IMG/VR virus record: IMGVR_UViG_3300020172_004437
Coordinates: 1 to 44,446 of that record
Strand: one strand, 5' to 3'
DNA length: 44,446 nt
DNA from: a virus
How positions within the stretch are numbered: position 1 is the first letter of the stretch; each line of letters starts with the position of its first letter. A model generated the notes under the pieces. The model saw only the letters and a program-made list of their open reading frames with translations, did not search any database and had not been told where the DNA came from. The position numbers and the translations under genes are program-made. This document shows, one piece after another, positions 1 through 32,681 of this stretch.

Positions 1-99
1 AAATCGTTCAACATTCCAAGATTTAGAATCCTTATCGAGTATATCATACAGATACTTCTTCATTACATCCACTTGTGATTCTGTTATAATGTATTTCAT
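1..99 (-). CDS. Partial tagged small protein, array member 1
   Basis: The 33 codons present start MKYIITESQVD and run off the left edge, so the C-terminus is missing. The start ATG (97-99) shares one base with the TAA of the upstream gene (99-101), giving TAATG and likely translational coupling. The N-terminal octapeptide is the same as in the next genes, while the residues after it differ. Function unknown; it is the first visible copy of a tandem family. Inference: a virion-packaged protein whose tag could be cut after ITE. Confidence 0.75.
   Translation of the reverse strand, partial: MKYIITESQVDVMKKYLYDILDKDSKSWNVERF
77..99 (-). repeat. Conserved 5' coding repeat encoding MKYIITE(S)
   Basis: The first 21-23 nt of the array genes are nearly identical at DNA level (copies start at 99, 509, 849, 1129 and 1454, minus strand), including silent positions, while the remaining gene bodies diverge. 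This looks like a conserved cassette head rather than ordinary paralogue decay. Confidence 0.7.
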
Positions 100-509
100 T
101 AGTCTAAAGTTTTATAGTCCAATCCTGTTTTATCTTTAAACCATTGTTTAAATACGGGTTTCCATAAATCACCAAAAAAATTATTTAATTCTTCTTTGGC
201 TATTTTATCTAAAATTACAACCATAGGTGATTCTGACACCATCCCTTCATATTCAGTTTTAGTTATATAACCTTGACTATAAACAGTCTTAAAATATTCT
301 TTACCTGTCCAACTAAAAAGATATTCAGAACCTTCATCACTATAATAATTGTCATTAACAAAGTCATAAGAATCAATCAATGACCCACCATCTTCATCGA
401 TGGAGTCAAGTTTATAAATTTCAGTATTTCCATTTTTTGATGCGAATAAATTATCCATAAAATTATAGACAGAGGAGTTCAATTTTGATTCTGTTATAAT
501 GTATTTCAT
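99..509 (-). CDS. Tagged small protein, array member 2
   Basis: 136 aa. An ATG 48 nt further upstream is possible, but the start at 509 gives MKYIITESKLN, exactly matching the neighbours, and leaves the TAA-T-ATG junction seen throughout the array. After the tag come an amphipathic helix, a polar Asp/Glu/Ser-rich middle and a C-terminal segment with WKPVFKQWFKDKTGLDY. That W-F-basic/acidic-x-x-hydrophobic ending recurs in the 511, 1456 and 2264 genes, so the bodies are probably distant homologues. No known domain recognised. Confidence 0.8.
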   Translation of the reverse strand: MKYIITESKLNSSVYNFMDNLFASKNGNTEIYKLDSIDEDGGSLIDSYDFVNDNYYSDEGSEYLFSWTGKEYFKTVYSQGYITKTEYEGMVSESPMVVILDKIAKEELNNFFGDLWKPVFKQWFKDKTGLDYKTLD

Positions 510-510
510 A

Positions 511-849
511 TTAGTATGCGTATTCACTTTCTCCATTATCAAAGGTTGTAACCTCATCTACATTAATGTTCATATGTTTTTTAAACCATCTAACAAGATG
601 TTTTTGAATGTCTTCCAATCCGTTCATAGAGAATAATCTATATATGGCTCTATATACCTCTTCTAAGATATACACTTCAGTTTCAAAAGGGTTGTCACTA
701 TCAACAAATATAATGATAACGGGTTGTCCTTTACTATTAACTAATCCTAGTCTATCACCATCCATCTGATGTTCCAAACCTTCGAATTGACGTGAGATAT
801 AGTTATCAATCACGGTATCCATTTTACTTTCTGTTATAACGTATTTCAT
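511..849 (-). CDS. Tagged small protein, array member 3
   Basis: 112 aa starting MKYVITESKMD. The tag is followed by a helix, a predicted beta strand (PVIIIFVDS), a second helix and the C-terminal VRWFKKHMNINVDEV, which aligns by eye with WF-K/E-x-x-[FHY] endings of other array members. The stop is separated from the ATG of the next gene downstream (509) by a single T. Function unknown; probably small, soluble and co-expressed with the rest of the array from the TATTTAT boxes upstream of 2566. Confidence 0.8.
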   Translation of the reverse strand: MKYVITESKMDTVIDNYISRQFEGLEHQMDGDRLGLVNSKGQPVIIIFVDSDNPFETEVYILEEVYRAIYRLFSMNGLEDIQKHLVRWFKKHMNINVDEVTTFDNGESEYAY

Positions 850-850
850 A

Positions 851-1129
851 TTATTGATGTAATTTCCAAAAGTCTTTTATATGTTGATAGAAATTAGTAT
901 TAACATATTGTTTGATTTGATTTCTAAAAGTTATAAACTCATCACCTTCCAAATTGGATTCATCAGCCATTTCAATTCCGACATTATTGGCGATGGTTAG
1001 TAATAAATAGTTAAATGGGACAAACATACTATGAGTATTAAGCATTCTATCAATCTTACTTTTCATAGCGTCTTCGCGTCTAAGTAGTTTAATTCTTGTA
1101 TGTTGTTGTTCTGTTATAACGTATTTCAT
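851..1129 (-). CDS. Tagged small protein, array member 4
   Basis: 92 aa starting MKYVITEQQHT; Q rather than S follows the ITE. The body is mostly helical, has no Cys, and ends in HIKDFWKLHQ, reminiscent of the aromatic-basic C-terminus of its neighbours but shorter. TAA-T-ATG junctions on both sides. No recognised domain. Confidence 0.75.
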   Translation of the reverse strand: MKYVITEQQHTRIKLLRREDAMKSKIDRMLNTHSMFVPFNYLLLTIANNVGIEMADESNLEGDEFITFRNQIKQYVNTNFYQHIKDFWKLHQ

Positions 1130-1130
1130 A

Positions 1131-1454
1131 TTATATTTCTTTTCTTGTTACCTGATAGAAAGTTAAATCCCATTCAGAACCGTATGATTTAAAGTCAATA
1201 CCGAATAATTGTTCTAAAGAAGATGCGACACCACGTTTAATTTCTATTAGTTCACCGTAGTTCTTAGTATTCTTAATGTTATTAATATAGATTGTGATTG
1301 ATATTTGTTCTATAGAGGTTTCACCTTTTTCATTTGGACCTGAACCCAAACCAACTCTTTTAGTTCCAAACTCAACATCGGCAACATCATAATTTTTAAG
1401 GATATAATCCTTAATCATATTATTCATTTTAGATTCAGTTATAATGTATTTCAT
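1131..1454 (-). CDS. Tagged small protein, array member 5
   Basis: 107 aa starting MKYIITESKMN. A helix (NMIKDYILKNY) follows the tag, then a GTKRVGLGSG strand-turn resembling GDRLGLVNSKG in member 3, and a strand ISITIYINNIKN. These shared landmarks support one fold across the array with strongly diverged sequence. Function unknown. Confidence 0.8.
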   Translation of the reverse strand: MKYIITESKMNNMIKDYILKNYDVADVEFGTKRVGLGSGPNEKGETSIEQISITIYINNIKNTKNYGELIEIKRGVASSLEQLFGIDFKSYGSEWDLTFYQVTRKEI

Positions 1455-1455
1455 A

Positions 1456-1758
1456 TTATGTCCAATTAATTATTTCTGAAACGGGGAGTTCATATTTATT
1501 TTCAAACCATTCTCCAATATTATCCAACATTTCTTCTTCAGATATATTAAAGAAACCTGATAACGCCCACACGATATTTGTCTCTACTAATAAACGTTCA
1601 TCTTCGTAAGTATAAATAAAGTCGTGAAAGTCTTTAGTTCCTTTTTGTAGAAGGATTAACTCACCGACAAATTCACCACCAACCAAGATGTATTCGGTCT
1701 TAGATAAGTACATATCCATAAGACGAAGAAGCTGAGTATGTGATACTTGATATTTCAC
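1456..1758 (-). CDS. Tagged small protein, array member 6, GTG start
   Basis: 100 aa if initiated at GTG 1756-1758, giving MKYQVSHTQLLRLMDMYLS, which lines up with the MKYxITES starts of its neighbours; the ATG 24 nt upstream would add eight residues that match nothing. The ITE core is degenerate (QVSH), so any protease site is lost here. The C-terminus contains IGEWFENKYELPVSEI, close to FIEEWFENYFGVEVEYV of the 2264 gene, which confirms family membership. It begins 4 nt after the stop of the methyltransferase-like gene. Confidence 0.7.
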   Translation of the reverse strand: MKYQVSHTQLLRLMDMYLSKTEYILVGGEFVGELILLQKGTKDFHDFIYTYEDERLLVETNIVWALSGFFNISEEEMLDNIGEWFENKYELPVSEIINWT

Positions 1759-1762
1759 AATA

Positions 1763-2254
1763 TTAGAATTTTGTAACGTCAATAAAGTTACTCAAAAGAG
1801 TGGTTGATTTTTTAAATCTCTCGTATGTCCAAACATATTTAAATTTATCGAAGTAGGGTTGATAACCGTAGTAGTTCATTGCGTCAGTATCGTGAACAAC
1901 TAATATCTGACAATCATTCTGAAATCTTTCGATATCCACAACTCTTCTTTCCGCAGGGGCGTGGTCAATCAATACAACTCCGCAAGGTATAACAGGTACT
2001 TTACTCCAATCCTCAACCAAGTGGAATTCGTGTTTATCTGTTCTTAAGTCAGTAAAGTTCTTATGCCATTCTTCGTGGTCATCATAAGATATTAATAACC
2101 TATCTTGATACTGACATATCTCGTGTAGTATGGGGGTGGAAAAATCCCCTGTTCCGAATTCAATAATCGGTCCTTCTGTTTTTAATACGGCCATCACTAA
2201 TGGGTGTATGTGTGTTCCGTAAGACCCTTGTGGGTGTTTTCTATTTTTAATCAT
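1763..2254 (-). CDS. Class I SAM-methyltransferase-like protein
   Basis: 163 aa. Residues about 29-40 read PIIEFGTGDFST, a glycine-rich loop after a hydrophobic strand as in motif I of Rossmann-type methyltransferases, followed by LLISYDDHEEW where an acidic residue would contact the cofactor ribose, and later VVLIDHAPAERR and ILVVHDTDAM. This pattern fits FkbM/class I methyltransferases, but the substrate is unknown and the enzyme is short. It carries no N-terminal tag although it sits inside the tagged operon, so it may act in the infected cell, perhaps on DNA, glycan or a small molecule. Confidence 0.6.
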   Translation of the reverse strand: MIKNRKHPQGSYGTHIHPLVMAVLKTEGPIIEFGTGDFSTPILHEICQYQDRLLISYDDHEEWHKNFTDLRTDKHEFHLVEDWSKVPVIPCGVVLIDHAPAERRVVDIERFQNDCQILVVHDTDAMNYYGYQPYFDKFKYVWTYERFKKSTTLLSNFIDVTKF

Positions 2255-2263
2255 ATTATTTAA

Positions 2264-2566
2264 TTAACTTTCTACGTATTCTACTTCAACACCGAAATAA
2301 TTTTCAAACCACTCCTCAATAAATAACTGAGACTTACCGAAGGGGAATAACTTATCAAAGGTGTCGATAAAGGATTTATCAATATATAATCTACCATCTG
2401 AACTATCAAACTCCATAAGAACTTCGGAGTCATAATAATCATCATTCAGGTCGTGGTAATATAAAACAATAAAGGTATCTATTTCACTTATACCGCCTGA
2501 TAACTTCTCATCTAAGAATGATGTCATAAGGTTTTTTAATCTCTCTTGTGGTATTATATAATCCAT
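2264..2566 (-). CDS. Tagged small protein, array member 7 (operon head)
   Basis: 100 aa starting MDYIIPQERLKNLM, a diverged form of the tag with PQE in place of ITE. Acidic, with strands FIVLYYHDLNDD and EVLMEFDSSDG and the family ending FIEEWFENYFGVEVEYV. It is the first gene of the leftward operon; the ATG is 4 nt downstream of a TATTTAT box (minus strand, 2571-2577) and a second box lies at 2592-2599. Function unknown. Confidence 0.75.
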   Translation of the reverse strand: MDYIIPQERLKNLMTSFLDEKLSGGISEIDTFIVLYYHDLNDDYYDSEVLMEFDSSDGRLYIDKSFIDTFDKLFPFGKSQLFIEEWFENYFGVEVEYVES

Positions 2567-2682: not shown

Positions 2683-3210
2683 ATGAAAAGAATGACAATT
2701 GACAACTCCCATTCAGAGATTGGGTTTAAAGTAAAACACTTAATGATTAGTACCGTTAAAGGTAACTTCGCCACATACGGTGGTGGAATCCAAGAAGACG
2801 GAACAGTATCTGTATCTGTAAACGCAGGTTCAGTTAACACGGGTAATGTAGATAGAGACAACCACCTAAAAGGTGCGGACTTCTTTAACACAGAAGAATT
2901 CCCAACAATCGAATTCAATGGTAAGATGACTGAAGATATGACTACGGTTACAGGTAACATCACAATCAAAGGTGTGACCAAAGAAATCGAACTAAACACT
3001 GAGTATAATGGAACAAGCAGAGACCCGTGGGGAAATACAAAACACGGATGGGAAATCACAGGTACAATCAATAGAAATGATTTCGGACTTGTATGGAACG
3101 CACCATTAGAAACAGGTGGTGTATTAGTAAGTGAGAACGTAACTTTATCTATGGATATTCAGATGATGGAAGAAGTTGTAGAAGAGATGGTTACAGAATC
3201 AGCAAACTAA
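2683..3210 (+). CDS. yceI: YceI family protein
   Basis: 175 aa. The start ATG at 2683 gives MKRMTIDNSHSEIGFKVKHL, the classical opening of YceI proteins, whereas an upstream GTG would add 14 unmatched residues. Other family landmarks are TVKGNFATYGGGI, DRDNHLKGADFF, FPTIEFNGK and the terminal strand VSENVTLSMDIQ. YceI proteins form a lipocalin-like barrel that binds isoprenoid or amphiphilic molecules. No signal peptide is present, so this copy should be cytoplasmic or virion-borne. A clear terminator follows. It is unusual as phage cargo and stands directly beside the candidate origin. Confidence 0.9.
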   Translation: MKRMTIDNSHSEIGFKVKHLMISTVKGNFATYGGGIQEDGTVSVSVNAGSVNTGNVDRDNHLKGADFFNTEEFPTIEFNGKMTEDMTTVTGNITIKGVTKEIELNTEYNGTSRDPWGNTKHGWEITGTINRNDFGLVWNAPLETGGVLVSENVTLSMDIQMMEEVVEEMVTESAN

Positions 3211-3234: not shown

Positions 3235-3268
3235 ACCCTTACTGTAATAGTAGGGGTTTTTTATTTAT
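3235..3268 (+). terminator. Terminator of the YceI gene
   Basis: A 9-bp stem ACCCTTACT/AGTAGGGGT around GTAAT is followed by TTTTTTATTT. Confidence 0.85.
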
Positions 3269-3357
3269 AGGATAATGAAACATTCTAATCCATTCATTCC
3301 ATCCTACCGTTCGTAAACTCACTACGGATTTCATTCAGGATTAGATTCTTTCATTAT

Positions 3358-3416
3358 GTATATTTCACGTAGTATCGTATAATTTAAGTATATTTCCGTA
3401 TCATTACGTATATTTC
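3358..3416 (+). repeat. Three GTATATTTC iteron-like repeats
   Basis: Copies start at 3358, 3388 and 3408, each preceded by AT, AA or AC and followed by ACG, CG or ACC. Spacings are 30 and 20 nt. Confidence 0.55.
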
Positions 3417-3426
3417 ACCATAATCC

Positions 3427-3449
3427 TTATGTATAGAGATTATACATAA
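3427..3449. repeat. Perfect hairpin TTATGTATA/TATACATAA
   Basis: A 9-bp perfect inverted repeat with a 5-nt loop GAGAT. A second pair TGTATAGA/TCTATACA follows within 40 nt. Confidence 0.7.
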
Positions 3450-3582
3450 CAACTTACTCGTGTATAGAAAATCAAATAATCTATACATAATCATTTTATC
3501 GTAATCCACATTACTGTAATGTATATTACCGTACAGGAATATTCATAGTACAATACACTGTTTACTGTCAGTTTATTACCAT

Positions 3583-3608
3583 ACGGTAAAATCCCCCCTT
3601 TTTACCGT
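3583..3608. repeat. Perfect hairpin with C-run loop
   Basis: ACGGTAAAA and TTTTACCGT pair over 9 bp, leaving the loop TCCCCCCT. Confidence 0.7.
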
Positions 3609-3735
3609 GTCCCCCATATATGAGATGACTATGTGAGGGACAGATATAATACTCTGATTATATAATACTTCTAAACAATACCTTCGGTAATATACGAGGT
3701 ATTATAAACTATAGAGTATAGTGTATGGTGACTAA

Positions 3736-3803
3736 GGGATTATATGAGATAACATATAAAAGATACCTACGGTATAAAACTATATGTTATTAGATATAAT
3801 CCC
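3736..3803. repeat. 68-nt three-tier perfect hairpin
   Basis: Nested stems GGGATTATAT/ATATAATCCC (10 bp), ATAACATATA/TATATGTTAT (10 bp) and ATACC/GGTAT (5 bp) are separated by small asymmetric internal loops (GAG/TAG, AAAG/AAAAC). An outer GTGACTA (3728) can pair with TAGTCAC (3836). All 25 bp are perfect, which implies selection for structure. Confidence 0.8.
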
Positions 3804-4197
3804 CACTTTATACCACTAAGTTATCTGTCTATTAATAGTCACTACGAAGGGGACTAATTTATCGGTCAAACTATGGTCATATATCGGTCAGATAACACCC
3901 TCTAACGAGGGGTCGTTGAAGGATAATCCTAACACACTACGTGTTACCCACGCCTCTGTACCATAACTTCTATTATTCTCTGGAGTTCACATATACCTAA
4001 AAAAACCTTTCTAACAGTACTCTCAGAGGGGAAAAAGTGGTCTTTACTATAGCGTCAGGTACGATAGTGGTGGTAGAAAGTGGGGGAGAGTGTATAGAGA
4101 GTGGGGATTAAAACCCTGTAAAGCGATTATCCCCATCGTAAAGGGTGACTGACATTTTGACAATTCCAAATTTTTTAACACTTATTTTTAAAAAAAG

Positions 4198-4259
4198 TTA
4201 TCAACAATTCCCCCCTGACAGTGTGTCAGGACCAATGTGGATAAAAAAAGTTATTCACA
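4198..4259. promoter_or_regulatory. Cluster of DnaA-box-like sites
   Basis: TTATCAACA at 4198-4206, TGTGGATAA at 4236-4244 (exact TTATCCACA on the minus strand) and TTATTCACA at 4251-4259, with the CTGACA-GTG-TGTCAG stem (4215-4229) between. Binding by host DnaA is inferred from the consensus only. Confidence 0.6.
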
Positions 4260-4314
4260 TTTAATATGTTCATAACTATATTTTATTGTACCCTCTTTCA
4301 AGGTATATATTATT

Positions 4315-6408: not shown

Positions 6409-6765
6409 ATGGGAAAATTTATAATAACTGAGGAAGAGAAAAAAGATATACTTGGATTGTATGAACAATCGTCTACGGTTCCTTTCTATTCATTCTTGAT
6501 AAGCAAGGGTTATAAACAAAGTAGTGATTGGACTGATATTGATGACCAAGAACTATATAAAGAAATTAAGGGATTGTCTTCAAAATTAAATTTGAGTCAG
6601 ACTGTATTGTTTATTAATTCTAATAAAGGGCTTGTTCCAATCAAATTGGTTACTGATGGGTCAAAAGTATATTTTATAGGGAACTTTTATCCTTCTGAAG
6701 TTGCAAATAAAATTCCAAACCCAAAAGGACCTTTTGTAATTAACGACATTAAAAAATATTTGTAA
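6409..6765 (+). CDS. Tagged protein, unknown body
   Basis: 118 aa starting MGKFIITEEEKKDILGLYEQ, the extended form of the tag: strand, ITE, helix, then LYEQ. The body (SSTVPFYSFLISKGYK onward) contains two strands, VLFINSNKG and KVYFIGNFY, and is not recognised. One T separates its TAA from the next ATG (TAATATG), so the two tagged genes are co-translated. Inferred: packaged virion protein with possible cleavage after ITE or YE. Confidence 0.75.
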   Translation: MGKFIITEEEKKDILGLYEQSSTVPFYSFLISKGYKQSSDWTDIDDQELYKEIKGLSSKLNLSQTVLFINSNKGLVPIKLVTDGSKVYFIGNFYPSEVANKIPNPKGPFVINDIKKYL

Positions 6766-6766
6766 T

Positions 6767-7279
6767 ATGAAAAAATTTATAATAACGGAATCTGAGAAAA
6801 GTAACATCTTAAATCTATATGGAAGATTAAATGAGTCTGAGGATATGGAGTTAATTCAAAATGAATTAACGGATAGTGGAGTTTCAATTCCTGTTGGGGA
6901 TATTGTTGACCCAACTGAACCATTATGTACCGCACCACAAACAGGTAATCCTGAGGAAGATGGAATATTATCCAAAGTATGGGATTGGGCACAAACTCAA
7001 AGTGTGGAAACACTACAAGATATAAAATCAAAGATTAAGGATTCTATATCTAAAGCAAAAGAATTAATTAAGAGTAAAAAGGTTAATGAACAAGTTGCCC
7101 CACTTCTTGTTATTGGAGGAGTTGGTATAACTGCGAGTACGTTGGTGGCAATTGGAGCGTTGTTATTATTCATTATAATAATTTCGATAATTGTTAAGAC
7201 GACAAAAAGAAACAGTAGTCCTTGTAAACGTAGACGTAAATTAGTTAAACGTTACGGAATGGACGGAAACTTTATGTAA
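6767..7279 (+). CDS. Tagged single-pass membrane protein with two cleavage-like motifs
   Basis: 170 aa. N-terminus MKKFIITESEKSNILNLYGR is followed by LNE-SED at about residues 21-26 and a second site VNE-QVA at about 105-110, just before a hydrophobic segment (about 110-147, LLVIGGVGITASTL...IIIISIIV). The C-terminus is strongly basic (CKRRRKLVKRYGMDGNF). The middle is acidic, with a Trp-containing amphipathic helix. The architecture suggests a pro-protein that would release a membrane-active, basic C-terminal peptide after cleavage at VNE. A role in genome delivery or membrane penetration is speculation. Confidence 0.75.
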   Translation: MKKFIITESEKSNILNLYGRLNESEDMELIQNELTDSGVSIPVGDIVDPTEPLCTAPQTGNPEEDGILSKVWDWAQTQSVETLQDIKSKIKDSISKAKELIKSKKVNEQVAPLLVIGGVGITASTLVAIGALLLFIIIISIIVKTTKRNSSPCKRRRKLVKRYGMDGNFM

Positions 7280-8119: not shown

Positions 8120-9058
8120 ATGAAGCATTTATTAAATAATTTGACCGAACAAGAGAAGAACTCTATTCGTGAACAACATACGGGCGGTATGAAAGTTATG
8201 AACGAGAATTTCGATAAATTAATTAACGCCAAACTTGGAGATGTTAAAACACTTGTTGAAGCCGTTGCGGCTCCTGAACCTGTTGTTACTGGTTCTCGTA
8301 CCGCAAAAGTTTTCTTTGAACAAGAAGGAATGTATGAATTATCTGATGACACAAAAGAACGTATTAGAGAATTTATTACTCCCGCTCTTACTAAGTCTAA
8401 AAAAACTATCGAAAAGTTTTATAAAGACAAAACTTTTAAATTACCTAAATTCGTAACCATCGGAGCTAGTACCACAAGTGGTGGTAGTCCTCAGGCAAAT
8501 GATAAAGTTGCACAACGAAGAATCTCAGTTGTTAAAACAGTTGTTGAAGGTATTATGAAAGAAATCGGATATACTGATGAGATGATTAGACTATTCCTAA
8601 CAACTAACACTGATTACTATTATAATCCTACAGAATTAGACAGTAACCTATACGATAGAAATAGAGTAAAACCTTTAGACAAAGAAAGATTTGTTTACAT
8701 TACATTAAAGTCTTTAGATACTGCAGGTTTAGATAGTAAAGGTATTGATGTTGTTGAGGATATGATGAAAATTGCAAGAGGATATAACATTAATCCTGAC
8801 GAACAAGGTATCGCAGATGCGATTTGTAGATTACAAACATACTCTGACATTAAAGACTTAGATAATGAATTAAGAGATTTTGGTGGATTAGAGATGTTCA
8901 TTAACCAGACAATTACTAACGGATTTACCACTTATGATAGTGATATTGAAGAAAGAAGACAAATTGTTGACTGTTTGAATCGTGCGGCTAAAACAAGCGC
9001 GGGTGGTAGAATAATAGCCAAAAGAGTTGGCGATAAAGTAAGTATAATGTTAAACTAA
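8120..9058 (+). CDS. Tagged protein with OmpA-like domain
   Basis: 312 aa starting MKHLLNNLTEQEKNSIREQH, the NLTE variant of the tag shared with the 13990 gene, followed by MNE-NFD at about residue 28. Residues about 112-153 contain FVTIGASTTSGGSPQAND, then VAQRRISVVKTVV, resembling the strand-(T/D)-G-N-x-x-LSxxRA helix of OmpA C-terminal peptidoglycan-binding domains. The rest is helical and unrecognised. If packaged, it could engage cell-wall peptidoglycan during entry. The OmpA call is by pattern only. Confidence 0.65.
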   Translation: MKHLLNNLTEQEKNSIREQHTGGMKVMNENFDKLINAKLGDVKTLVEAVAAPEPVVTGSRTAKVFFEQEGMYELSDDTKERIREFITPALTKSKKTIEKFYKDKTFKLPKFVTIGASTTSGGSPQANDKVAQRRISVVKTVVEGIMKEIGYTDEMIRLFLTTNTDYYYNPTELDSNLYDRNRVKPLDKERFVYITLKSLDTAGLDSKGIDVVEDMMKIARGYNINPDEQGIADAICRLQTYSDIKDLDNELRDFGGLEMFINQTITNGFTTYDSDIEERRQIVDCLNRAAKTSAGGRIIAKRVGDKVSIMLN

Positions 9059-11173: not shown

Positions 11174-11557
11174 ATGAATTATAGTATTAGTGAAAGCCGT
11201 TTAGTTAAGTTAATCAAATCATTATTTGGTAGAAAAGACGTACCTAAAAGTTTGGTAGATATTATTAGAGAGAAATACATCAATTCTTATTTGTCAGGTC
11301 TTGAAAGAGTACATAATGAAAGGTTTCACGGATGGGGAAGTGCTACTATGTGGTCAGATTCTGATGATGAGAGAATGATTAGTCTAATTAAAAAAGGTAG
11401 AGAAGGAAATATAATTAATATAAACCAAAAACTTATAACTAATTTATCAGGATTATTAGGTATGACCAACCAAGAGGTAATGGATGCGATTGTTGTATAC
11501 CTCAAACCTGAAATTAAAGGTAGAATTATGAGCGTTGAACCGTTTTCATTTGGATAA
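11174..11557 (+). CDS. Tagged small protein
   Basis: 127 aa from ATG 11174 (MNYSISESRLVKLIKSLFGR); an upstream TTG would overlap the previous gene. ISE-S matches the proposed cleavage signature. The body is basic and helical, with Trp pairs (HGWGSATMWSDSDDE) and a glycine motif NLSGLLGMT. Unknown function. Confidence 0.7.
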   Translation: MNYSISESRLVKLIKSLFGRKDVPKSLVDIIREKYINSYLSGLERVHNERFHGWGSATMWSDSDDERMISLIKKGREGNIININQKLITNLSGLLGMTNQEVMDAIVVYLKPEIKGRIMSVEPFSFG

Positions 11558-11573: not shown

Positions 11574-12434
11574 ATGAATAAAAAAATAAAGATAACTGAG
11601 GATGATTTAATTAAAATCGTCAATATTGTCAAAGAAAACATTAATCTAAATGATTATAGTGACGAGGACTTTATTGAAGTTTTTGTTACTTTATTCAGAC
11701 CTTGGGTGAAAAAGAATCACGGAGATGAAATAGGTGAATATCCAATGTCGTTTTTGATTAAAAAACACTATGATGAATTTGCCAAGTATTATGGCATTGA
11801 TAATGATAGATATTGGGGGTCAGGAATGAGTAAATTAGTCAAAATTGGACGTGCCATAGTAGAAAAAGGTAGACATAAGTTACCTAATTTATCTAAAACT
11901 GAAAAATTTACTGAAAAATACGGAAAAGGTATTGAAATATTGGTAAAAAACTTAGATTTACCTGATTTTGTCACTATTAAAATTGAAGAAGAGAGACCTT
12001 ACGATGTTTGGGTTAGAACTTATGTTGATTTTGAAAAATATGTTAAATCTGACTTAGATAATACACAAATTCAACAAATTAAAAGAGCTGGAGATGAATT
12101 AAGGAAATCTTTTGAGAATTTTTTAGGTGTTACTTATGGAAATCCTTCTCACGGGTTATTAAAATACCACTCAAATTCAACTGCAGAGATGGTTGGTGAA
12201 GATGAATGGGTGAAAAAAGAGCTTAATAAAAAAATTAAGAAAGAAATTAAACAACTACCTGGTGGTAGTGGAATTCATATGATAAAATATGAGAGTGGTA
12301 ACAATAGAATTAAACTTAAATTAGTTTTTAGAAATTCGACTGGGTGGTCATCTCAAAGAAATGTTAAAGAAAGTACCATAAATTTACTAAGAGACCTAGG
12401 TTATAATCCAAATATAATCGAAGTAGACGCTTAA
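11574..12434 (+). CDS. Tagged protein, unknown body
   Basis: 286 aa starting MNKKIKITEDDLIKIVNIVK, a tag of the type seen in the 23724 gene (helix DLxxIVxxVxKE). The body is basic and helix-rich, with WGSGMSKLVKIGRAIVEK, a strand FVTIKIEEERPYDVWV and a C-terminal GSGIHMIKYESGNNRIKLKL. It shares a TAATATG junction with the LETM1-like gene. Not recognised; could be a DNA-binding internal head protein given its Lys/Arg content. Confidence 0.7.
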   Translation: MNKKIKITEDDLIKIVNIVKENINLNDYSDEDFIEVFVTLFRPWVKKNHGDEIGEYPMSFLIKKHYDEFAKYYGIDNDRYWGSGMSKLVKIGRAIVEKGRHKLPNLSKTEKFTEKYGKGIEILVKNLDLPDFVTIKIEEERPYDVWVRTYVDFEKYVKSDLDNTQIQQIKRAGDELRKSFENFLGVTYGNPSHGLLKYHSNSTAEMVGEDEWVKKELNKKIKKEIKQLPGGSGIHMIKYESGNNRIKLKLVFRNSTGWSSQRNVKESTINLLRDLGYNPNIIEVDA

Positions 12435-13083: not shown

Positions 13084-13974
13084 ATGGGAAAATTTATATT
13101 AACTGAAGAAGATAGAAAATCAATTCGTGGATTATATGGTTTGAACGAGCAATCAAGTGAGATTGTTTCTATTAAAGGAGAGCAACCATATCCAAACGGT
13201 ACTGATTGGGATTTAGTACACGGTATATTAGGTTCTAAAAGATTATCTGATGATTTGGAAAAAAGGGTTAGTGAAAAATTGAAGAGTGGAAGTTATAGAG
13301 TAACTGATGTCAAAATTTCATCTTATGTTAGTGATAATAAAGTTATTACTGATGGAACAGTTACTTTAGTTTCAGACATTAATAATCCTGATATTGCATT
13401 TACTACAAGAGGCTCCATAGGGGGTAATTATGAACAACGTCACGATAACCAAATTAATGGGTTAGTTGACAGATTATCTGCCTATTATCAAGGAATTACA
13501 AGACAATTTGGGCCATTCATTGTTAATGTAAAAGGTTCTTCTTGGAGATACAAACAATCATTTTTTGCGGTTTCAAAACAAAATACAGAACCGTCAAAAC
13601 CAAATCCAGAACCGTCAAGTGGTGAAGTTATGAAGAAATTTGTGATTTCAACAACAAATTTGGACCAATTAAATCCCAAATTTAAAAACGAGGTTTCAAC
13701 TTATATTAAAAGTAATAAAGATGTAAAATATGATGTTGATTATTTTGATGTATCATCTGAAGATGGTATAACCTCAATTGCAAAATTAGATATAGTTCCA
13801 AATGAAAATGGTTACAATCGATTTTCAATATTATTAAATCTAAAAGGAAAACCACAAGAATCATTAAACAATTCCTTAAGTAAAAATCCTGGTTCTAAAC
13901 TTATAAAAGACGGGACGATTACAATAAATAATAAAGAATATGAATACCATTTAATTGGTTTAAATGTAGAATAA
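13084..13974 (+). CDS. Tagged two-domain protein
   Basis: 296 aa starting MGKFILTEEDRKSIRGLYGL and NEQ, a full extended tag with an LNE-Q site at about residues 20-23. An upstream GTG-type extension would add 13 residues and cross the TATTTATA box. The first domain (to about 170) has GTDWDLVHGILGSK and beta strands; a Pro/Asn/Glu linker (TEPSKPNPEPSSGE) leads to a second domain of about 100 aa with VMKKFVISTTNLDQLN. Not recognised. Confidence 0.75.
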   Translation: MGKFILTEEDRKSIRGLYGLNEQSSEIVSIKGEQPYPNGTDWDLVHGILGSKRLSDDLEKRVSEKLKSGSYRVTDVKISSYVSDNKVITDGTVTLVSDINNPDIAFTTRGSIGGNYEQRHDNQINGLVDRLSAYYQGITRQFGPFIVNVKGSSWRYKQSFFAVSKQNTEPSKPNPEPSSGEVMKKFVISTTNLDQLNPKFKNEVSTYIKSNKDVKYDVDYFDVSSEDGITSIAKLDIVPNENGYNRFSILLNLKGKPQESLNNSLSKNPGSKLIKDGTITINNKEYEYHLIGLNVE

Positions 13975-13989
13975 AAAAAAACAAAAATT

Positions 13990-14319
13990 ATGAAACACAT
14001 TTTAAATAATTTAACGGAAGAAGAAAAAGACTCTATTCGTAGACAACATTCAAATAAAATTGTTAGTGAACAAACCGTAAAACCTAATACAGACCCTAAC
14101 GCAAACCTTGGTCAACCACCTAAAGGTATGTTGAAAAGTTGTAACCCTACAACACTTAAAGGAATTAAAAATATGTTTTTTGGAGAAAGCGATAACTCAA
14201 TTAAAATAGAAAACAATGTTTCTTTCGGTGAAAGAAATGGTGGTAGTGATGTGTTCTTCATTACCGCTCAAGGTGCCGCTCCTTGTTGGTGTAAAAAAGC
14301 AGACTTCCAAAAACTTTAA
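13990..14319 (+). CDS. Tagged protein, NLTE variant
   Basis: 109 aa starting MKHILNNLTEEEKDSIRRQH then IVSE-Q, almost the same tag as the 8120 gene although the bodies are unrelated. The body is short with Cys near SCNPTTLKGIK and APCWCKKADF, a possible metal or disulfide cluster. Ends at a terminator. Good example of one head on two different bodies. Confidence 0.75.
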   Translation: MKHILNNLTEEEKDSIRRQHSNKIVSEQTVKPNTDPNANLGQPPKGMLKSCNPTTLKGIKNMFFGESDNSIKIENNVSFGERNGGSDVFFITAQGAAPCWCKKADFQKL

Positions 14320-14823: not shown

Positions 14824-15573
14824 ATGGGACAAGAATTAATAAATGAAGAGTTAGAAAAGATGAAATATCTTTTTGGATATCAAAAAGGTGTTGTTATTTC
14901 TGAACAACAAAGTAGAGGAACTTCGGGAACTAGTGGTTCTTCAGGAACCGCAGGTAGTAGTGGTTCATCGGCTTCTACGGCGAATCCTGACGATGCCGAT
15001 TGGACTAAAGTAGTTAATTACTATACAGGTAATACTGACGCATCTTGGGAATTTGTAAGTGCAGGTACTTATGACAGTGGAGCAGTCATTTACGATTTTA
15101 TTGAAGTAAAAACCAAGGATACCGCAACAAATGGGACGGATTGTACAATGAAACTTTATGACGATAAAGACGCTTATAAACGTAATTGTAGAAAGGCTAA
15201 AACAATAAATGGACAGTGGTCTTGGGATGGTAATAAACCAACATTAACTTGGGAGGATAGAATAACTAAATCATCTCCTGGTTATGTATCAGATACTGAT
15301 ACTGATTGGAGTGGAGTAACCAACGATAATAGAATTATGGGAGTTGGTGCTAAAGGAAGTTTAGTAAAAAAAGTTCAAAACTTTTTAGCGTCTAACGGTT
15401 ATACTGGAGAAACATTTACTAACGATATTCAAGCTTGTGCGACAGATGAGAATAGTTGTGATGGAATTTACGGAGTAAAAACTAAAAATATGGTTAAGAA
15501 ATTCCAAGAAGATGCTGATATTAAACCTGACGGTATTTTTGGAACTCAGACTTATGATGCAATGTTTGAATAA
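14824..15573 (+). CDS. Tagged peptidoglycan-binding protein
   Basis: 249 aa. N-terminus MGQELINEELEKMKYLFGYQ with VISE-QQ at about residues 26-30, then a Gly/Ser/Thr linker (TSGTSGSSGTAGSSGSS), a central beta domain with a Cys pair (NGTDCTMKLY, YKRNCRKAK), and a C-terminal PG_binding_1-type repeat about 170-249 (VGAKGSLVKKVQNFLASNGY ... CDGIYGVKTKNMVKKFQ ... IKPDGIFGTQTY). A virion protein that binds cell wall is the simplest reading. Ends at a terminator shared with the convergent small basic gene. Confidence 0.8.
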   Translation: MGQELINEELEKMKYLFGYQKGVVISEQQSRGTSGTSGSSGTAGSSGSSASTANPDDADWTKVVNYYTGNTDASWEFVSAGTYDSGAVIYDFIEVKTKDTATNGTDCTMKLYDDKDAYKRNCRKAKTINGQWSWDGNKPTLTWEDRITKSSPGYVSDTDTDWSGVTNDNRIMGVGAKGSLVKKVQNFLASNGYTGETFTNDIQACATDENSCDGIYGVKTKNMVKKFQEDADIKPDGIFGTQTYDAMFE

Positions 15574-19701: not shown

Positions 19702-20004
19702 ATGAAGTTTATTATTACAGAGGAACAGAAAAATTTGATAGATAAGTATTCGGGTAATACTGATGAAAAAGTATTATCACATCTTAAAAGACACTTCCCT
19801 ATTCAAGTACAGGAGTTTGAATGGTTTGATAAACCATTTAGAACTATTTTTATTGATGATAAAACTAGAAACTTAGACACTAATAAAAAATATTTGGTAA
19901 ACACCATCTTTTATTTATTGGAGGATATATTTCCTAATGTCGATAAGAATATTCTAAGAAGAACTATTAAGTATTATATCGATGTTAATAGGACTTTGGA
20001 TTAA
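19702..20004 (+). CDS. Tagged small protein
   Basis: 100 aa starting MKFIITEEQKNLIDKYSG. The body has a strand FRTIFIDDKTRN, a helix LVNTIFYLLEDIFP and a terminal helix ILRRTIKYYIDVNRTLD, again the helix-strand-helix plan of the leftward array. Single gene between a TATTTAT box and the next box. Unknown function. Confidence 0.75.
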   Translation: MKFIITEEQKNLIDKYSGNTDEKVLSHLKRHFPIQVQEFEWFDKPFRTIFIDDKTRNLDTNKKYLVNTIFYLLEDIFPNVDKNILRRTIKYYIDVNRTLD

Positions 20005-23723: not shown

Positions 23724-24740
23724 ATGAAAAAAATTATAAAATTAAACGAAAGTGATTTAAGAAGAATAGTTACTAAAGTTATAAAAGAACACGACAACAA
23801 TATTGTTGAGCCAACAGGTCAATATTTTACTTTAGGTGGTTTTTACTTTTACGTTGATGGTAGTAAAATGTTTTTAGCTGACAGAACAAATGGTGAACTG
23901 TCCCCTAATTTATCTGTTGAATTCCCGTCAACTACTGAGATATCTGCCGAATGGACTCAAAAAACTCAAGAAGTCGATGACGAAAACATTAAAGGTAAAG
24001 AATTAACAGGTTTGTCATTTGACCAAAAAATGAAAAACGCAATCAATTACGGTAAGTTTATTTACACTAAGAACGAAGCTATTGTTAATTTTGGAAGTAT
24101 GATTCCTTTATTATTTTTCTCTCAAAAATTTATAGCACCAACATTAGGAGGTATTGTAGTTGGAACTGAATTCCCTGACGGAGTAGAGGGAAAAATTAAT
24201 TTAATTGACGCAAAACCAGGTAATAAAATATTCTTCCAACAATCGGCATTTAAACACGGTAAAGAATATGGTATTAGATTAGAAGTTGCAATGCACGGAC
24301 AACCAATTTCATTAAAAGATTTTGGAATTAATCAAAATATGTTAAAATTACCTAAAACTTATAATATCGGTGAATTTTTTGCCGAAAATAGTGCAACCCC
24401 ACATAACCTACATACCGCATCTTTTATTAAAACAATTAAAGATTTTATATCTAACGGTGGTAAAGTTAATAGATTAATGATTAACGCATCAACATCTAAA
24501 TTACCTGCAGGTCATATGGATAATGACACAAATAATTCTAAATGGTCTGATAATACAGAATTTAATGATTTAGTTGTTGGTAATAATGATGACGGAAGCG
24601 GTAATTTACAATTATGTAAAGCTAAAGCATATAACACTTATAATGAATTAAAAAAGGCAATTCCTGAATTGAATAGTGCCCCTTATGTTTTAAAAGCGGC
24701 GGGTCCTTTAGGTGAGTATGTTCACGTTAAATTTGAATAA
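23724..24740 (+). CDS. Tagged beta-rich protein with possible OmpA-like end
   Basis: 338 aa starting MKKIIKLNESDLRRIVTKVI then KE-HDN; LNE-S occurs at residues 7-10 and the helix DLRRIVTKVIKE is the commonest form of this head in aquatic phage proteins as I recall. The body begins with a beta domain (YFTLGGFYFYVDGSKMFLAD). The C-terminal part (VNRLMINASTSKLPAGHMDN ... NLQLCKAKAYNTYNELKK) loosely follows the OmpA-like strand / N-x-x-L-x-x-x-(R/K)A helix plan. Ends at a terminator. Inferred virion protein. Confidence 0.7.
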   Translation: MKKIIKLNESDLRRIVTKVIKEHDNNIVEPTGQYFTLGGFYFYVDGSKMFLADRTNGELSPNLSVEFPSTTEISAEWTQKTQEVDDENIKGKELTGLSFDQKMKNAINYGKFIYTKNEAIVNFGSMIPLLFFSQKFIAPTLGGIVVGTEFPDGVEGKINLIDAKPGNKIFFQQSAFKHGKEYGIRLEVAMHGQPISLKDFGINQNMLKLPKTYNIGEFFAENSATPHNLHTASFIKTIKDFISNGGKVNRLMINASTSKLPAGHMDNDTNNSKWSDNTEFNDLVVGNNDDGSGNLQLCKAKAYNTYNELKKAIPELNSAPYVLKAAGPLGEYVHVKFE

Positions 24741-24833: not shown

Positions 24834-24907
24834 GGTAGTGGTAGCTCAGAAGGTAGAGCATTCGTTCAAAAAACGGTGTGCCATTGGTTCGATTCCAATC
24901 CCTACCA
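24834..24907 (+). tRNA. tRNA with bulged acceptor stem, anticodon uncertain (AAA by position)
   Basis: D-arm GCTC-AGAAGGTA-GAGC and T-arm ATTGG-TTCGATT-CCAAT are canonical. The acceptor pairs as GGTAG(T)GG with CCCTACC, which needs one bulged T. The anticodon arm TTCGT-TCAAAAA-ACGGT has a T-T mismatch at the top and C instead of U at position 33; counting gives anticodon AAA (Phe). A homopolymer sequencing error in the A run would change this. CCA is not fully encoded (ACA follows). A functional but diverged tRNA, or a decoy, are both possible. Confidence 0.75.
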
Positions 24908-24927
24908 CAAAAAAAGATAAAAAAAAA

Positions 24928-25630: not shown

Positions 25631-25640
25631 ATAATTGGGT

Positions 25641-26054
25641 ATGGAAATTTTAAACACACACCCAATTAAAAAATCTGACTTAGGATTTCACGGAAATTTA
25701 TTTGGTGGTAAGTTATTGGCTTGGATTGACGCTGCGGCTGCGGGATATTCTATGCAATTATGTGACTCCCCAAGAATGGTTACAGTATCTATTGATAAAT
25801 GTTTTTTTGAAAAACCTGCAAAAGAAGGTCAATTACTTAAAATTTATGGATACCCAAGCAAATTAGGAAACACTTCAGTTACTCTATATATGGAGGCGAG
25901 AGCTCACAATGTTTATACAGGTAATCAAGCGGTAGTACTTAAAACCAATATAAGATTTGTTAATATTGATGAAGAAGGTAACCCAATACCTATAGGAGAA
26001 AAAGGTAGGAGAAGAATTGAAAAATTAATAGAACAAAATAATTTGGTAGAATAA
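25641..26054 (+). CDS. Acyl-CoA thioesterase (hotdog fold, YciA/BACH-like)
   Basis: 137 aa from ATG 25641 (a TTG six nt upstream is rejected). DLGFHGNLFGGKLLAWIDAA is the hallmark hotdog helix region of YciA-type thioesterases, followed by MVTVSIDKCFFEKPAKEGQ and a final strand VVLKTNIRFVNID. The family hydrolyses acyl-CoA thioesters in the cytoplasm as a hexamer. The sequence is nearly complete compared with cellular enzymes. No promoter of either class is evident upstream. An uncommon phage-borne metabolic gene that could alter host membrane lipid supply. Confidence 0.85.
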   Translation: MEILNTHPIKKSDLGFHGNLFGGKLLAWIDAAAAGYSMQLCDSPRMVTVSIDKCFFEKPAKEGQLLKIYGYPSKLGNTSVTLYMEARAHNVYTGNQAVVLKTNIRFVNIDEEGNPIPIGEKGRRRIEKLIEQNNLVE

Positions 26055-26820: not shown

Positions 26821-27846
26821 ATGAAAAGAAAATTCGATTTTAAAGATATTACTATAGTACCTGAAACAGTATCATCAATTAGTAGTCGTAGTGAAGTTAA
26901 TATCTTAAATGAACAGGGAGAACTACCAATTATGGTATCCCCAATGGATACCGTAGTTGATTTAAATAACTATAAACAATTTATCGATTTAAACATTCCC
27001 GTTTGTTTACCTCGAGGTGAGGATTTGGTTGACGACGCATTTTATTCGGTTTCATTAGAAGAATTTGAAACTATTGTTAATCATTATTTAGAACCAGGTT
27101 TAAATATTAAACTTAAAATATTGGTTGATATTGCCAATGGTCACATTAAAAAATTACACGATTTATGTGAAAAATTTATCAGTAAGCGAGATAAAACATT
27201 ACATACATTAATGGTCGGTAATATTGCTAATCCTAAAACTTATAAACAGTTTGGTAAAATAGGTGTTGACTATGTTAGAGTTGGAATTGGTGGTGGTTCA
27301 GGATGTCTAACTTCCGCAAATACTGGGGTACATTACCCAATGGCATCATTGATTAATGAATGTTATGAGTTTAAGAAAAAATACGATTTTGAAACCAAAA
27401 TTGTTGCGGATGGGGGTTTTAGAAATTACGATGATATTATTAAAGCTTTGATGTTAGGTGCGGATTATGTGATGTTAGGGGGAATTTTAAATAAATGTTT
27501 AGAATCTTGTTCAGAAACTAAATTATTCAATAAGATTAAACTATCTCAAAACATCTCAAATTATATTTGGATTTATTATCCTAAATTAAGACAATTTTTA
27601 TATAAATCATTTAGAGGTATGAGTACTAAAGATGTTCAAAAAAAATGGAATAAAAATATATTAAAAACATCTGAAGGTATTGTCAAAACAAATAAAGTTG
27701 AGTATACTTTAAATCAGTGGACAGATAATTTTAAAGATTACTTAAAATCGGCGATGTCGTACACCAATTCAAATACTTTAGAATCTTTCAAAGACTCCGA
27801 ATACGTTTTTATAACCGAAAATGCTCTTAAAAGATTTAATAAATAA
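26821..27846 (+). CDS. IMP dehydrogenase / GMP reductase family enzyme
   Basis: 341 aa, a TIM barrel without CBS domains. Seen: FDFKDITIVPETVSS near the start, IMVSPMDTVVD, the active-site loop GIGGGSGCLTSANTGVHYP with C162, IVADGGFRNYDD, ALMLGADYVMLGG, and a degenerate flap FRGMSTKDVQKKW. IMPDH oxidises IMP to XMP; GMPR reduces GMP to IMP; both use the same Cys. The length and lack of CBS favour a GMPR-like enzyme, but the loop GGGSGCLTSA departs from the usual GPGSxCTTR, so specificity is open. Would redirect guanine nucleotide pools during infection. Confidence 0.85.
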   Translation: MKRKFDFKDITIVPETVSSISSRSEVNILNEQGELPIMVSPMDTVVDLNNYKQFIDLNIPVCLPRGEDLVDDAFYSVSLEEFETIVNHYLEPGLNIKLKILVDIANGHIKKLHDLCEKFISKRDKTLHTLMVGNIANPKTYKQFGKIGVDYVRVGIGGGSGCLTSANTGVHYPMASLINECYEFKKKYDFETKIVADGGFRNYDDIIKALMLGADYVMLGGILNKCLESCSETKLFNKIKLSQNISNYIWIYYPKLRQFLYKSFRGMSTKDVQKKWNKNILKTSEGIVKTNKVEYTLNQWTDNFKDYLKSAMSYTNSNTLESFKDSEYVFITENALKRFNK

Positions 27847-30645: not shown

Positions 30646-30869
30646 TGAATTTATTTAAAAGTTTGATAATCTTATTAGTCATTATAGGTAGACTATACTT
30701 AGTTTTTAAAGTATTTCAGGGACTTTATTTTAATCATATTAATCCTGATTATACATTAGATAGTATACAATGGTATTTGTGTGTCTTGTTTTTAGATTTT
30801 TACATAGTTAAGATGTTCGATAATTCAAGTTCTGAGGATATTTATTCTAAAAAAGGTAATGAAGAATAA
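30645..30869 (+). CDS. Small two-helix membrane protein
   Basis: 74 aa; two hydrophobic segments (about 5-25 and 43-58) and a polar tail SSSEDIYSKKGNEE. Its ATG overlaps the TAA of the kinase gene (TAATG) and its end overlaps the next gene by 11 nt, so it is tightly coupled to a lytic transglycosylase. This suggests a lysis or entry role, but the sequence alone is not diagnostic. Confidence 0.65.
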   Translation: MNLFKSLIILLVIIGRLYLVFKVFQGLYFNHINPDYTLDSIQWYLCVLFLDFYIVKMFDNSSSEDIYSKKGNEE

Positions 30870-31587
30870 CTTAAACGAGGAAATAAATCGAATAAAAAAA
30901 TTATCTAATATTAATGAATCGGTCCTTAATGAAGGATTGTTTGATGATATTAAAAAATTAATGTCAATCGCTTCTGACGATATGAAGAGTAATGAAATAT
31001 ATAAAAAATTAATTGACTATTTTAAAGAATTAATTCCTGGTGTAGATTCACAAACTTCCGCAAGTCAACTTAGAATAAGTGAAAAAGGCCAAGAATTATT
31101 AGATAATCCTGTGTTTAAACAAAAATTAAAAGAAATTTCAGATGCAATTAATATTGATGAGCAATCAATTATAAAACTAATGAATCACGAGTCAGGATTG
31201 GACCCAACAATTAAAAATAGTATTGGTTGTGTTGGTTTAATTCAATTTTGTCCTAGTGGTGGAGGTACTAAAAAAATTAATGGTAAAAATTATTCTTTAG
31301 AAGACTTAAGAAATGATTTAGAGGTTCAAATGGAAGCTATTAAACAATTTTGGTTATCAGGATATAATTCTGGTAAAATTAAAAGTCCTGAAGATTTATA
31401 CATTTATAATTTTTTCCCTATCGCAGCTGGAAAATCTGATGACTTTGTATTACAAAGTAGTGACTTGTCTGCAGAAACCGTTGCAAATTCAAATCCAGTG
31501 TTTAATAGAACTCTTAATAGAAAAAGAAACACACCGTTAACTGTTGGTGATTTAAAAGATTATTATCAAAAAACGGGAATGGTTTAA
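30859..31587 (+). CDS. Tagged lytic-transglycosylase-like protein
   Basis: 242 aa starting MKNNLNEEINRIKKLSNINE-S and VLNE-G, two cleavage-like motifs at about residues 17-20 and 22-26. Residues about 86-215 resemble a soluble lytic transglycosylase: MNHESGLDPTIKN with catalytic-type E111, then SIGCVGLIQFCPSGG replacing the usual A-x-G-L-x-Q, and FFPIAAGKSDD where family members have the YNxG region. It would cleave the glycan strand of peptidoglycan, and the head-type tag suggests delivery within the virion. The 3' end overlaps the PPK2 gene by 4 nt. Confidence 0.75.
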   Translation: MKNNLNEEINRIKKLSNINESVLNEGLFDDIKKLMSIASDDMKSNEIYKKLIDYFKELIPGVDSQTSASQLRISEKGQELLDNPVFKQKLKEISDAINIDEQSIIKLMNHESGLDPTIKNSIGCVGLIQFCPSGGGTKKINGKNYSLEDLRNDLEVQMEAIKQFWLSGYNSGKIKSPEDLYIYNFFPIAAGKSDDFVLQSSDLSAETVANSNPVFNRTLNRKRNTPLTVGDLKDYYQKTGMV

Positions 31588-32681
31588 TTCTCAGGTTTTA
31601 ATACCGTAAGAGCTTCAGGGTATTCTTTATTTAAAAGATTTTCATTTTTACCTTCGTAAGGGATATTTTGTAATACGTATCTTATTGCATTTAAACCTGA
31701 TATTTTCTTATCTATTGCGTCCAAAATAACCCAAGGATGATTCATAGTTGAAGTTTTGTCGAATAACTTTTCTTTAAACTCAGTAAATCTATCCCATAAA
31801 TCTTGCATTCTTGAATCGTTTGGAGAATACTTCCAATATTTTAAAGGTGATTTTTGTCTCATATCAAATCTTTTTGCTTGAGTTTCTTTATCAATTGAAA
31901 ACCAAAGTTTAAATAAAAAGTCACCATCTTTAATTAATGAGTTCTCAAAGTCCTCAACACCATCCATAAACTGTTGGTATTCTTCATCAGAACCATAACC
32001 CATAACAGGCTCAACTAATCCTCTGTTATACCAACTTCTATCAAATAGATTAATTTTGCCTTTTTCTATTTGTGATTCGTATCTCTGCCACCAATTTTTT
32101 CTTTCTTCAGGTGTTGGAATTCCCATCGCAATTACTTTATAACCTCTTGGGTTCATATTTTCAATAAATTTCTTAATTGTTGAACCTTTACCAGCGCTAT
32201 CCCTTCCTTCAAAAACAATAATAACAGTTTTATTATTTTTACTTAACCATTCTTGTAACTTTAATAATTCAACCTGTAATCCAAAAAGTTCTTTACGATA
32301 TATTTTTTTAGGAACAATCGAAGGTTCCTGAGGTTCAAACGAGTAATCATCAGATTCTGGCTCAACATTATAACTGTCAGTTTCCCTATTTTTTAAAGAC
32401 TTAACAACTTTGTCAAAATAATTCTCAACGCTTTTTTTCTTATTACCTTTCTTTAATAATACTTTTTTAAGACCTCTATCTAATAATTCAAAATCAATAA
32501 TCCTTTCGTCACCCATTTTAATTATTGAACTAAGATTTTGTTCAACGTTAGGGGTTAACATATTGTTAAAAGATAAAATATCTTTAATTCTTTTAACATA
32601 ATCTTGAGTAGACCCTTCGTTAATAGGCTCCCCTGTTATTATTTTATTAATCTTATAGATTTCTTTTAGCAATTTGTCCAT
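31584..32681 (-). CDS. ppk2: Tagged polyphosphate kinase 2
   Basis: 365 aa. Residues about 130-350 are a PPK2 domain: Walker A GRDSAGKGST (159-168), FDRSWYNRGLVEPVM (Walker B region, about 213-227), lid residues QAKRFDMRQKSPLKYWKYSP and a C-terminal DAIDKK. PPK2 transfers phosphate between polyphosphate and nucleoside di/monophosphates. The 120-residue N-terminal extension begins MDKLLKEIYKINKIITGEPI with INE-G at 20-23, the same tag and cleavage-like motif as the unrelated transglycosylase next to it. This suggests a packaged enzyme that could supply NTPs from polyphosphate at entry. Fully intact by motifs. Confidence 0.9.
   Translation of the reverse strand: MDKLLKEIYKINKIITGEPINEGSTQDYVKRIKDILSFNNMLTPNVEQNLSSIIKMGDERIIDFELLDRGLKKVLLKKGNKKKSVENYFDKVVKSLKNRETDSYNVEPESDDYSFEPQEPSIVPKKIYRKELFGLQVELLKLQEWLSKNNKTVIIVFEGRDSAGKGSTIKKFIENMNPRGYKVIAMGIPTPEERKNWWQRYESQIEKGKINLFDRSWYNRGLVEPVMGYGSDEEYQQFMDGVEDFENSLIKDGDFLFKLWFSIDKETQAKRFDMRQKSPLKYWKYSPNDSRMQDLWDRFTEFKEKLFDKTSTMNHPWVILDAIDKKISGLNAIRYVLQNIPYEGKNENLLNKEYPEALTVLKPEN

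Follow-up and report, generated by a model that had tools for sequence, protein, structure and literature searches.

Tagged cargo genes of a huge phage: a tandem array that probably represents an enlarged T4-like internal-protein locus

A tandem array with near-identical gene starts

Why should five consecutive small genes begin with almost the same 21 bases when the rest of each gene has diverged? The question is raised by an array at positions 1 to 2566 of the IMG/VR virus record IMGVR_UViG_3300020172_004437, whose 44,446 bases (the whole stretch analyzed, called the window here) are a 44-kb fragment of a huge phage. We regard the array as probably an enlarged form of the internal-protein (ip) locus known from T4, in a T4-like huge phage, and its shared gene starts, or heads, as probable capsid-targeting propeptides.

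The five heads, all on the minus strand, start at window positions 99, 509, 849, 1129, and 1454 and read ATGAAATAC[AG]TTATAAC[AT]GAA, which encodes MKY[IV]ITE (n = 5). An earlier note on this DNA had described near-identical starts in at least five consecutive genes with divergent bodies, TAATATG or TAATG junctions, and worn copies of the head on two further genes, and all of this was borne out. Pairwise, the four complete genes are identical at 19 to 21 of the 21 head bases, then at 5 to 20 of the next 30 and 16 to 28 of the following 60; four of the five heads are preceded by TAAT (TAATATG), while the head at 99 overlaps the preceding stop (TAATG); and the worn heads are real (VKYQVSH at 1758 and MDYIIPQE at 2566). 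The array comprises the following genes (class I is the tag class of the array heads; L023 is a syntenic locus in a relative, record G015).

1..99, minus strand: gene 0, class I head MKYIITESQ; cut off by the window end; complete orthologue at L023:3441-3770
99..509, minus strand: gene A, MKYIITESKL, 136 residues; 101-protein family; WFKDKTG ending
511..849, minus strand: gene B, MKYVITESKM, 112 residues; predicted alpha/beta fold
851..1129, minus strand: gene C, MKYVITEQQH, 92 residues; predicted all-helical; orthologue at L023:9858-10157
1131..1454, minus strand: gene D, MKYIITESKM, 107 residues; family common to A and B
1456..1758, minus strand: gene E, worn head VKYQVSH with a GTG start (its counterpart in L023 has an ATG start and MRYQVSH); WFENKY ending; family assigned by eye
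1763..2254, minus strand: gene F, untagged, inside the array; no Pfam match
2264..2566, minus strand: gene G, worn head MDYIIPQE; WFENYF ending; family assigned by eye; DNA 96.8% identical in L023

Tags on many genes of the window and its relatives

The array head belongs to a set of at least four N-terminal tags that are interchangeable. Four patterns were written by eye from the window and the related genomes G015, G028, and G004, which leaves G032 and G033 as the only out-of-sample genomes: class I, MK[YFHILV][IVL][IVL][TSN]E; class II, of the type MKKIIRLTESDLTRIVKRVIKE; class III, of the type MGKFIITEEEKK.I..LYE; and class IV, of the type M..L.E...IK.LMG. Among genes called with an ATG-only caller, tags were found on 14 of 65 in the window, 23 of 196 in G015, 32 of 365 in G028, and 25 of 401 in G004, and in the two genomes not used for the patterns on 30 of 362 (G032) and 25 of 310 (G033). 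Each large relative thus carries 23 to 32 tagged proteins, or 6 to 12% of its called genes. The controls gave 0 of 213 genes in Flavobacterium phage immuto, 1 of 145 in RM378, and 0 of 531 in the first 400 kb of LR745206, and internal methionines gave 3 matches in 6,776. None of 20 core enzymes (PolB, DnaB, the main sigma factor, and AAA proteins) was tagged. In a separate observation, the same part of LR745206 (L166-L185) has a peak of [ILV][TSN]E at residues 11 to 16, with 24 genes against about 11 per window of positions, which may be a further dialect of tag, in a separate clade of huge phages.

The 340 tagged open reading frames, 231 of them class I, have bodies that fall into 163 clusters, so that the tag is a short leader on otherwise unrelated proteins. 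Dialects exist within class I: in the window, G015, G004, and G028 residue 3 is usually Y, and in G032 and G033 usually I. A tblastn search of tag peptides against phage records, a weak test with queries of 20 to 24 residues, gave no match for class II and matches only at E ~ 10 for class I, and a search of open-licence papers, motif strings included, found no report of the tag. Outside the array, the window carries the following tagged or tag-like genes.

6409..6765, plus strand: class III tag MGKFIITEEEKKDILGLYEQ
6767..7279, plus strand: class III tag MKKFIITESEKSNILNLYGRLNE
8120..9058, plus strand: class III tag MKHLLNNLTEQEKNSIREQ
11174..11557, plus strand: class II tag MNYSISESRLVKLIKS
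11574..12434, plus strand: class II tag MNKKIKITEDDLIKIVNIVKE
13084..13974, plus strand: class III tag MGKFILTEEDRKSIRGLYGLNE
13990..14319, plus strand: class III tag MKHILNNLTEEEKDSIRRQ
14824..15573, plus strand: class IV tag with a peptidoglycan-binding domain
19702..20004, plus strand: class I tag MKFIITEEQ
23724..24740, plus strand: class II tag MKKIIKLNESDLRRIVTKVIKE
30859..31587, plus strand: class IV tag MKNNLNEEINRIKKLSNINE on a transglycosylase (SLT) domain
31584..32681, minus strand: polyphosphate kinase PPK2 with a tag-like N terminus that does not match the patterns; its relative lies inside the L023 array

The cargo was scanned with Pfam in 75 proteins, namely 72 cluster representatives of at least 150 residues (of the 163 clusters), the window protein at 30859, and two PPK2 proteins added by hand. 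Matches included PPK2, Phage_lysozyme2, SLT, peptidoglycan binding, thioredoxin, sigma-70, and a UPF0227 hydrolase, among others, with ART-PolyVal below the cut-off; most tagged bodies had no match. In the UPF0227 protein the domain begins at residue 27, right after the tag. The sigma-70-like protein (L077:5830-6753) carries a class I tag and is not the main sigma factor of the relatives, which is untagged; a prepackaged sigma factor would be notable if true.

Prohead protease and capsid protein of the clade

The relatives encode a head module of T4 type. An S77 protease (PF03420) was found in 13 of 35 records searched, many of which are fragments, and scored above the cut-off in 10, G015 included; it is present in G015, G004, and G028. 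PHROGs matches in G015 comprise the protease, portal, terminase, and capsid protein, and in G015, G028, and G004 the portal, protease, scaffold-like acidic protein, and capsid protein are ordered as T4 genes 20-67-68-21-22-23. The capsid protein aligns with T4 gp23 (E ~ 1e-24). At 80 capsid-protein loci (L188-L267), tblastn detected the protease in 58, including all 38 with enough upstream DNA. The clade is very common in IMG/VR, with at least 594 confirmed relatives.

The N terminus of the capsid protein has a predicted cleavage site, LINE↓[AS] (the arrow marks the predicted cut), with INE↓A in 77 of the 77 loci that could be parsed, three of the 80 being unparsed. T4 gp21 cuts after L/I-X-E, and the propeptide of Alt has 7 residues (PMC9026906), the length of MKYIITE. 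Class I tags end in ITE by definition, and the tags generally end in [ILV]xE. Counted by body cluster, an [ILV].E with its E at residues 13 to 24 is present in 36 of 47 class II, 19 of 25 class III, and 17 of 21 class IV clusters, against 179 of 726 untagged proteins, a comparison inflated a little by the hydrophobic residues that the class II to IV patterns demand near this second site.

Tagged genes lie beside the capsid gene at 22 of 48 loci of at least 10 kb. One head-module protein has three different N termini before the same conserved body, MKTYKKRINE↓AP, MGNLTEKELDRIVNKIINE↓AP, and MAKYRTIKE↓AP, and the endings INE↓A or IKE↓A before one body suggest a processing boundary there. In a neighbor of the head module, the RYMFFSNLEQ protein, class II tags alternate with shorter N termini.

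Cassette turnover with seams at the heads

The earlier note had proposed that the head may serve as a recombination anchor by which small cargo genes are shuffled, or be under strong separate selection, and had named gain and loss of single cassettes in related arrays as a check. A DNA scan for the head in IMG/VR returned 85 stretches, on records of 4 to 309 kb, among them L023 in G015 (158,622 bases), which is syntenic with the window array. There the genes run G, PPK2, E, D, A, gene 0. L023 lacks C and B at the junction of D with A, its C orthologue being some 7 kb away, and PPK2 occupies the place of window gene F. The similarity between window and L023 spans D plus the next head and ends directly behind that head. 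Gain and loss of single genes was thus found in syntenic arrays, D-C-B-A in the window corresponding to D-A in G015, with other cases besides.

In one comparison or more, similarity broke off at the start for 62 of 111 class I starts and 131 of 590 others (odds ratio, 4.4), counting only starts with an alignable upstream flank, at loci that were fetched by the head and are not phylogenetically independent; same-contig record pairs and high-scoring segment pairs below 75% identity or 150 bases were dropped. The breaks peak just behind the head, at +20 to +29. Seven junction pairs were picked from a list of comparisons. In the four recent ones the preceding 100 bases are 91 to 100% identical and the head matches at 19 to 20 of 21 bases, while body identity is 0.57 to 0.60 (0.60 for random pairs); in the three older ones upstream identity is 0.60 to 0.81. 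Single cassettes are therefore gained and lost, and the seams lie at the head. In G032, a tagged and an untagged gene are 92.1% identical over 416 bases, the alignment beginning right after the tag.

The seams would also be expected if the head were kept mainly at the DNA level, for shuffling bodies, whatever the peptide does. Codon usage in the array favors this as well: synonymous codon agreement among the five heads is 0.93, against 0.54 expected from window codon usage, a value reached by 1 of 20,000 simulations (product estimate, 1.3e-5), and all five heads have the minority codons TAC (0.30) and ATA (0.29). Between genomes, head codon sharing (0.57 to 0.76; expected, 0.53 to 0.56) lies above expectation in the six pairs compared, in one of them barely. 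The orthologues tell against it: among 196 orthologous pairs, codon conservation at identical residues in head and body is 0.71 and 0.63, 0.72 and 0.71, 0.79 and 0.76, and 0.90 and 0.90, with no clear excess in the head. Since these codons are conserved about equally in both parts, the general constraint is on the peptide, and a recombination anchor would be a by-product. Moreover, the heads of other genomes differ in codons or residues (MKIIITE, MKYLITE), the other tag classes are likewise conserved as peptides despite being scattered, and similarity blocks cross any conserved stretch, so that simple gene turnover also predicts a stop behind the head. We therefore consider a head maintained chiefly as DNA unlikely. 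Of the earlier proposal, separate selection on the head holds and the seams do fall at heads, while its DNA-level part is weak outside this array. Two related candidates were rejected: DNA-level constraint on heads among orthologues was not seen in the 196 pairs, and genome-specific homogenization of head codons is not supported because within-genome sharing (0.61 to 0.80) overlaps that between genomes.

Bodies, predicted folds, and other roles for the head

Genes A, B, and D encode remote members of one 101-protein family (linkage clustering) with conserved F and W. The AlphaFold2 model of B (45 sequences; mean predicted local distance difference test score [pLDDT], 85) is a compact alpha/beta domain with a helix at residues 7 to 23, four strands, two helices, a strand, and a short C-terminal helix; residues 1 to 6 are coil, and residues 1 to 10 have a pLDDT of 65. 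The model of C (6 sequences; mean pLDDT, 83.5) is all-helical, with a pLDDT below 50 at residues 1 to 5. In both models, which differ in fold, the head lies outside the predicted domain: the stretch conserved best is structured least, and by these models it is a tag rather than a component of the fold.

The layout that the earlier note had attributed to all bodies therefore holds for some of them. A, B, and D form one family, and the WF ending is present in A and B and, by eye, in the genes at 1456 and 2264; D ends in EWDLTF, and C has no WF. A single fold for every array body, which that note had put forward for structure prediction, is ruled out by the predicted all-helical C. A PDB fold search with B gave no match at E ≤ 0.001, one in BFVD gave seven matches, all to nameless proteins from uncultured phages, and Pfam and PHROGs searches of the array genes gave nothing credible for function.

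A tag that is modular, N-terminal, outside the fold, and attached to diverse proteins could direct them elsewhere than the head interior (e.g., to the tail, a membrane, or a structure of the infected cell) or act as a stability signal. This is less likely still than a DNA anchor, given that the last residues of the tag are the motif of the prohead protease that the clade itself encodes, a motif shared by the capsid protein, that tags occur beside the capsid gene, and that core enzymes are untagged. Ordinary tandem paralogues with an N terminus conserved as part of the fold, which the A, B, and D family with its F and W might suggest, are very improbable, the first six residues being low-confidence coil in two different folds and identical heads occurring on unrelated bodies while being absent from near-identical ones.

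A proposed capsid address for phage cargo

We return to the internal-protein reading. In it, a diverse set of small proteins would reach the prohead core by way of the shared head, which the S77 (gp21-type) prohead protease would remove by a cut after I-T-E during head maturation; the freed bodies would then travel inside the capsid and be delivered to the host along with the DNA. The bodies would diversify and be gained or lost as cassettes, while the peptide recognized by core and protease would stay fixed; since tandem genes share the head stretch, we propose that recombination between heads could swap bodies and keep the tag. By analogy with T4 Ip1 to Ip3, the injected bodies may serve host takeover or counter-defense.

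The sequences show the tag with its motif and modularity, its spread in one phage clade, the protease and capsid motif of relatives, and the seams at heads; packaging, cleavage, and injection of the tagged proteins and the roles of their bodies are inferred. Several points weigh against this reading. The window, a 44-kb fragment, has no recognized head genes, so the evidence on protease and capsid protein comes from relatives. The tag classes were defined by eye, and the exact class I (MK[FY]-type) DNA pattern is absent from 9 of 10 further capsid-bearing records, although two of these nine, fetched whole, carry MKIIITE. Only 34 of 73 class I clusters have an [ILV].E at residues 13 to 24; since about half lack this second [ILV]xE, the class I cut position is a guess. 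The 101-member family is acidic (median isoelectric point, 4.97), unlike the basic internal proteins of T4. Finally, the array retains two worn heads, and a strict signal should have been kept intact unless those genes are no longer of use.

A wider reading, which we put forward tentatively as possible rather than probable, is that an abundant huge-phage clade, probably infecting Bacteroidota, has a genome-wide capsid address system, in which tens of different proteins (lysozymes, a polyphosphate kinase, and an accessory sigma factor among them) are loaded into the head for delivery by propeptide tags of at least four interchangeable kinds and the tag DNA is a handle for plugging in new cargo genes. 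Under the internal-protein reading, the tag picks out by sequence alone which of hundreds of genes of unknown function in huge phages have products that probably enter the host at infection, turning hypothetical proteins into a ranked list of candidate counter-defense and takeover proteins. It also supplies natural leader sequences with which proteins could be loaded into phage heads of very large size, and a large natural data set in which cargo is exchanged and the address label kept.

Other features of the window

The closest phage-record relatives of the IMPDH-like window protein are in uncultured phages of 462 to 642 kb. Host-like metabolic genes encode IMPDH/GMP reductase (26821-27846), a thioesterase (25635-26054), and YceI (2683-3210). 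The protein at 32820-34724 combines a type IX secretion C-terminal sorting domain with a cohesin domain, which points to a host among the Bacteroidota and to export of this phage-encoded protein; one with lectin C-type and concanavalin-like domains and a signal-like N terminus (39046-40725) belongs to a run of probably exported proteins. A lone tRNA-Phe (24834-24908) has the anticodon AAA, the usual one being GAA. Beside the array, about 1 kb (3240-4310) is gene-free and rich in inverted repeats, with boxes TTATCAACA and TTATTCACA near 4200 and 4250; parts of it are 67 to 80% identical in L064, L076, L018, L009, and L084, and it could be an origin or control region.

Comparison with known systems

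The cultured Flavobacterium phage immuto resembles the clade in its annotated gp20, prohead core serine protease, and gp23 and in a related capsid protein with the motif IVSE↓A; it differs in that none of its called genes has any of the four tag classes. Salmonella phage SPN3US and other phiKZ-like giants have N-terminal propeptides, two of them of 20 and 24 residues, that are cut by the prohead protease (PMC10052503), and the SPN3US ejection proteins are similarly a large internal protein load. The protease there is gp245, the propeptides are mostly long, and small-cassette arrays are not described in the sections of PMC10052503 drawn on here.

The closest likeness is to T4. Its IPI to IPIII and Alt have a capsid-targeting leader, cut by gp21, that ends in L/I-x-E, and their bodies are unrelated and variable; T4 has an S77 protease and the head gene order found in relatives of the window, and the T4 capsid protein propeptide site is LTE↓A. 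As in the window array, the neighbors ipII and ipIII are tandem genes alike only in leader DNA, with the first 30 of 30 bases identical and then 10, 9, and 10 of 30. The T4 Ip1 to Ip3 proteins have only the leader in common, and the three block different GmrSD restriction enzymes (PMC12373910); T-even internal proteins are described as a diverse set conserved only in the targeting sequence (PMC3012670), and those of T4 as basic (PMC9026906). T4 has three internal proteins and Alt, whereas the large genomes of this clade each have 23 to 32 tagged proteins that are predicted to be packaged, in at least four tag classes, with a leader peptide unlike that of T4 and acidic bodies, and tag enzymes (lysozymes, PPK2, and thioredoxin) and an accessory sigma factor as well. 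The kind of system is thus already known from T4; what is new is the size it reaches, its use of several interchangeable tags, and the clade.

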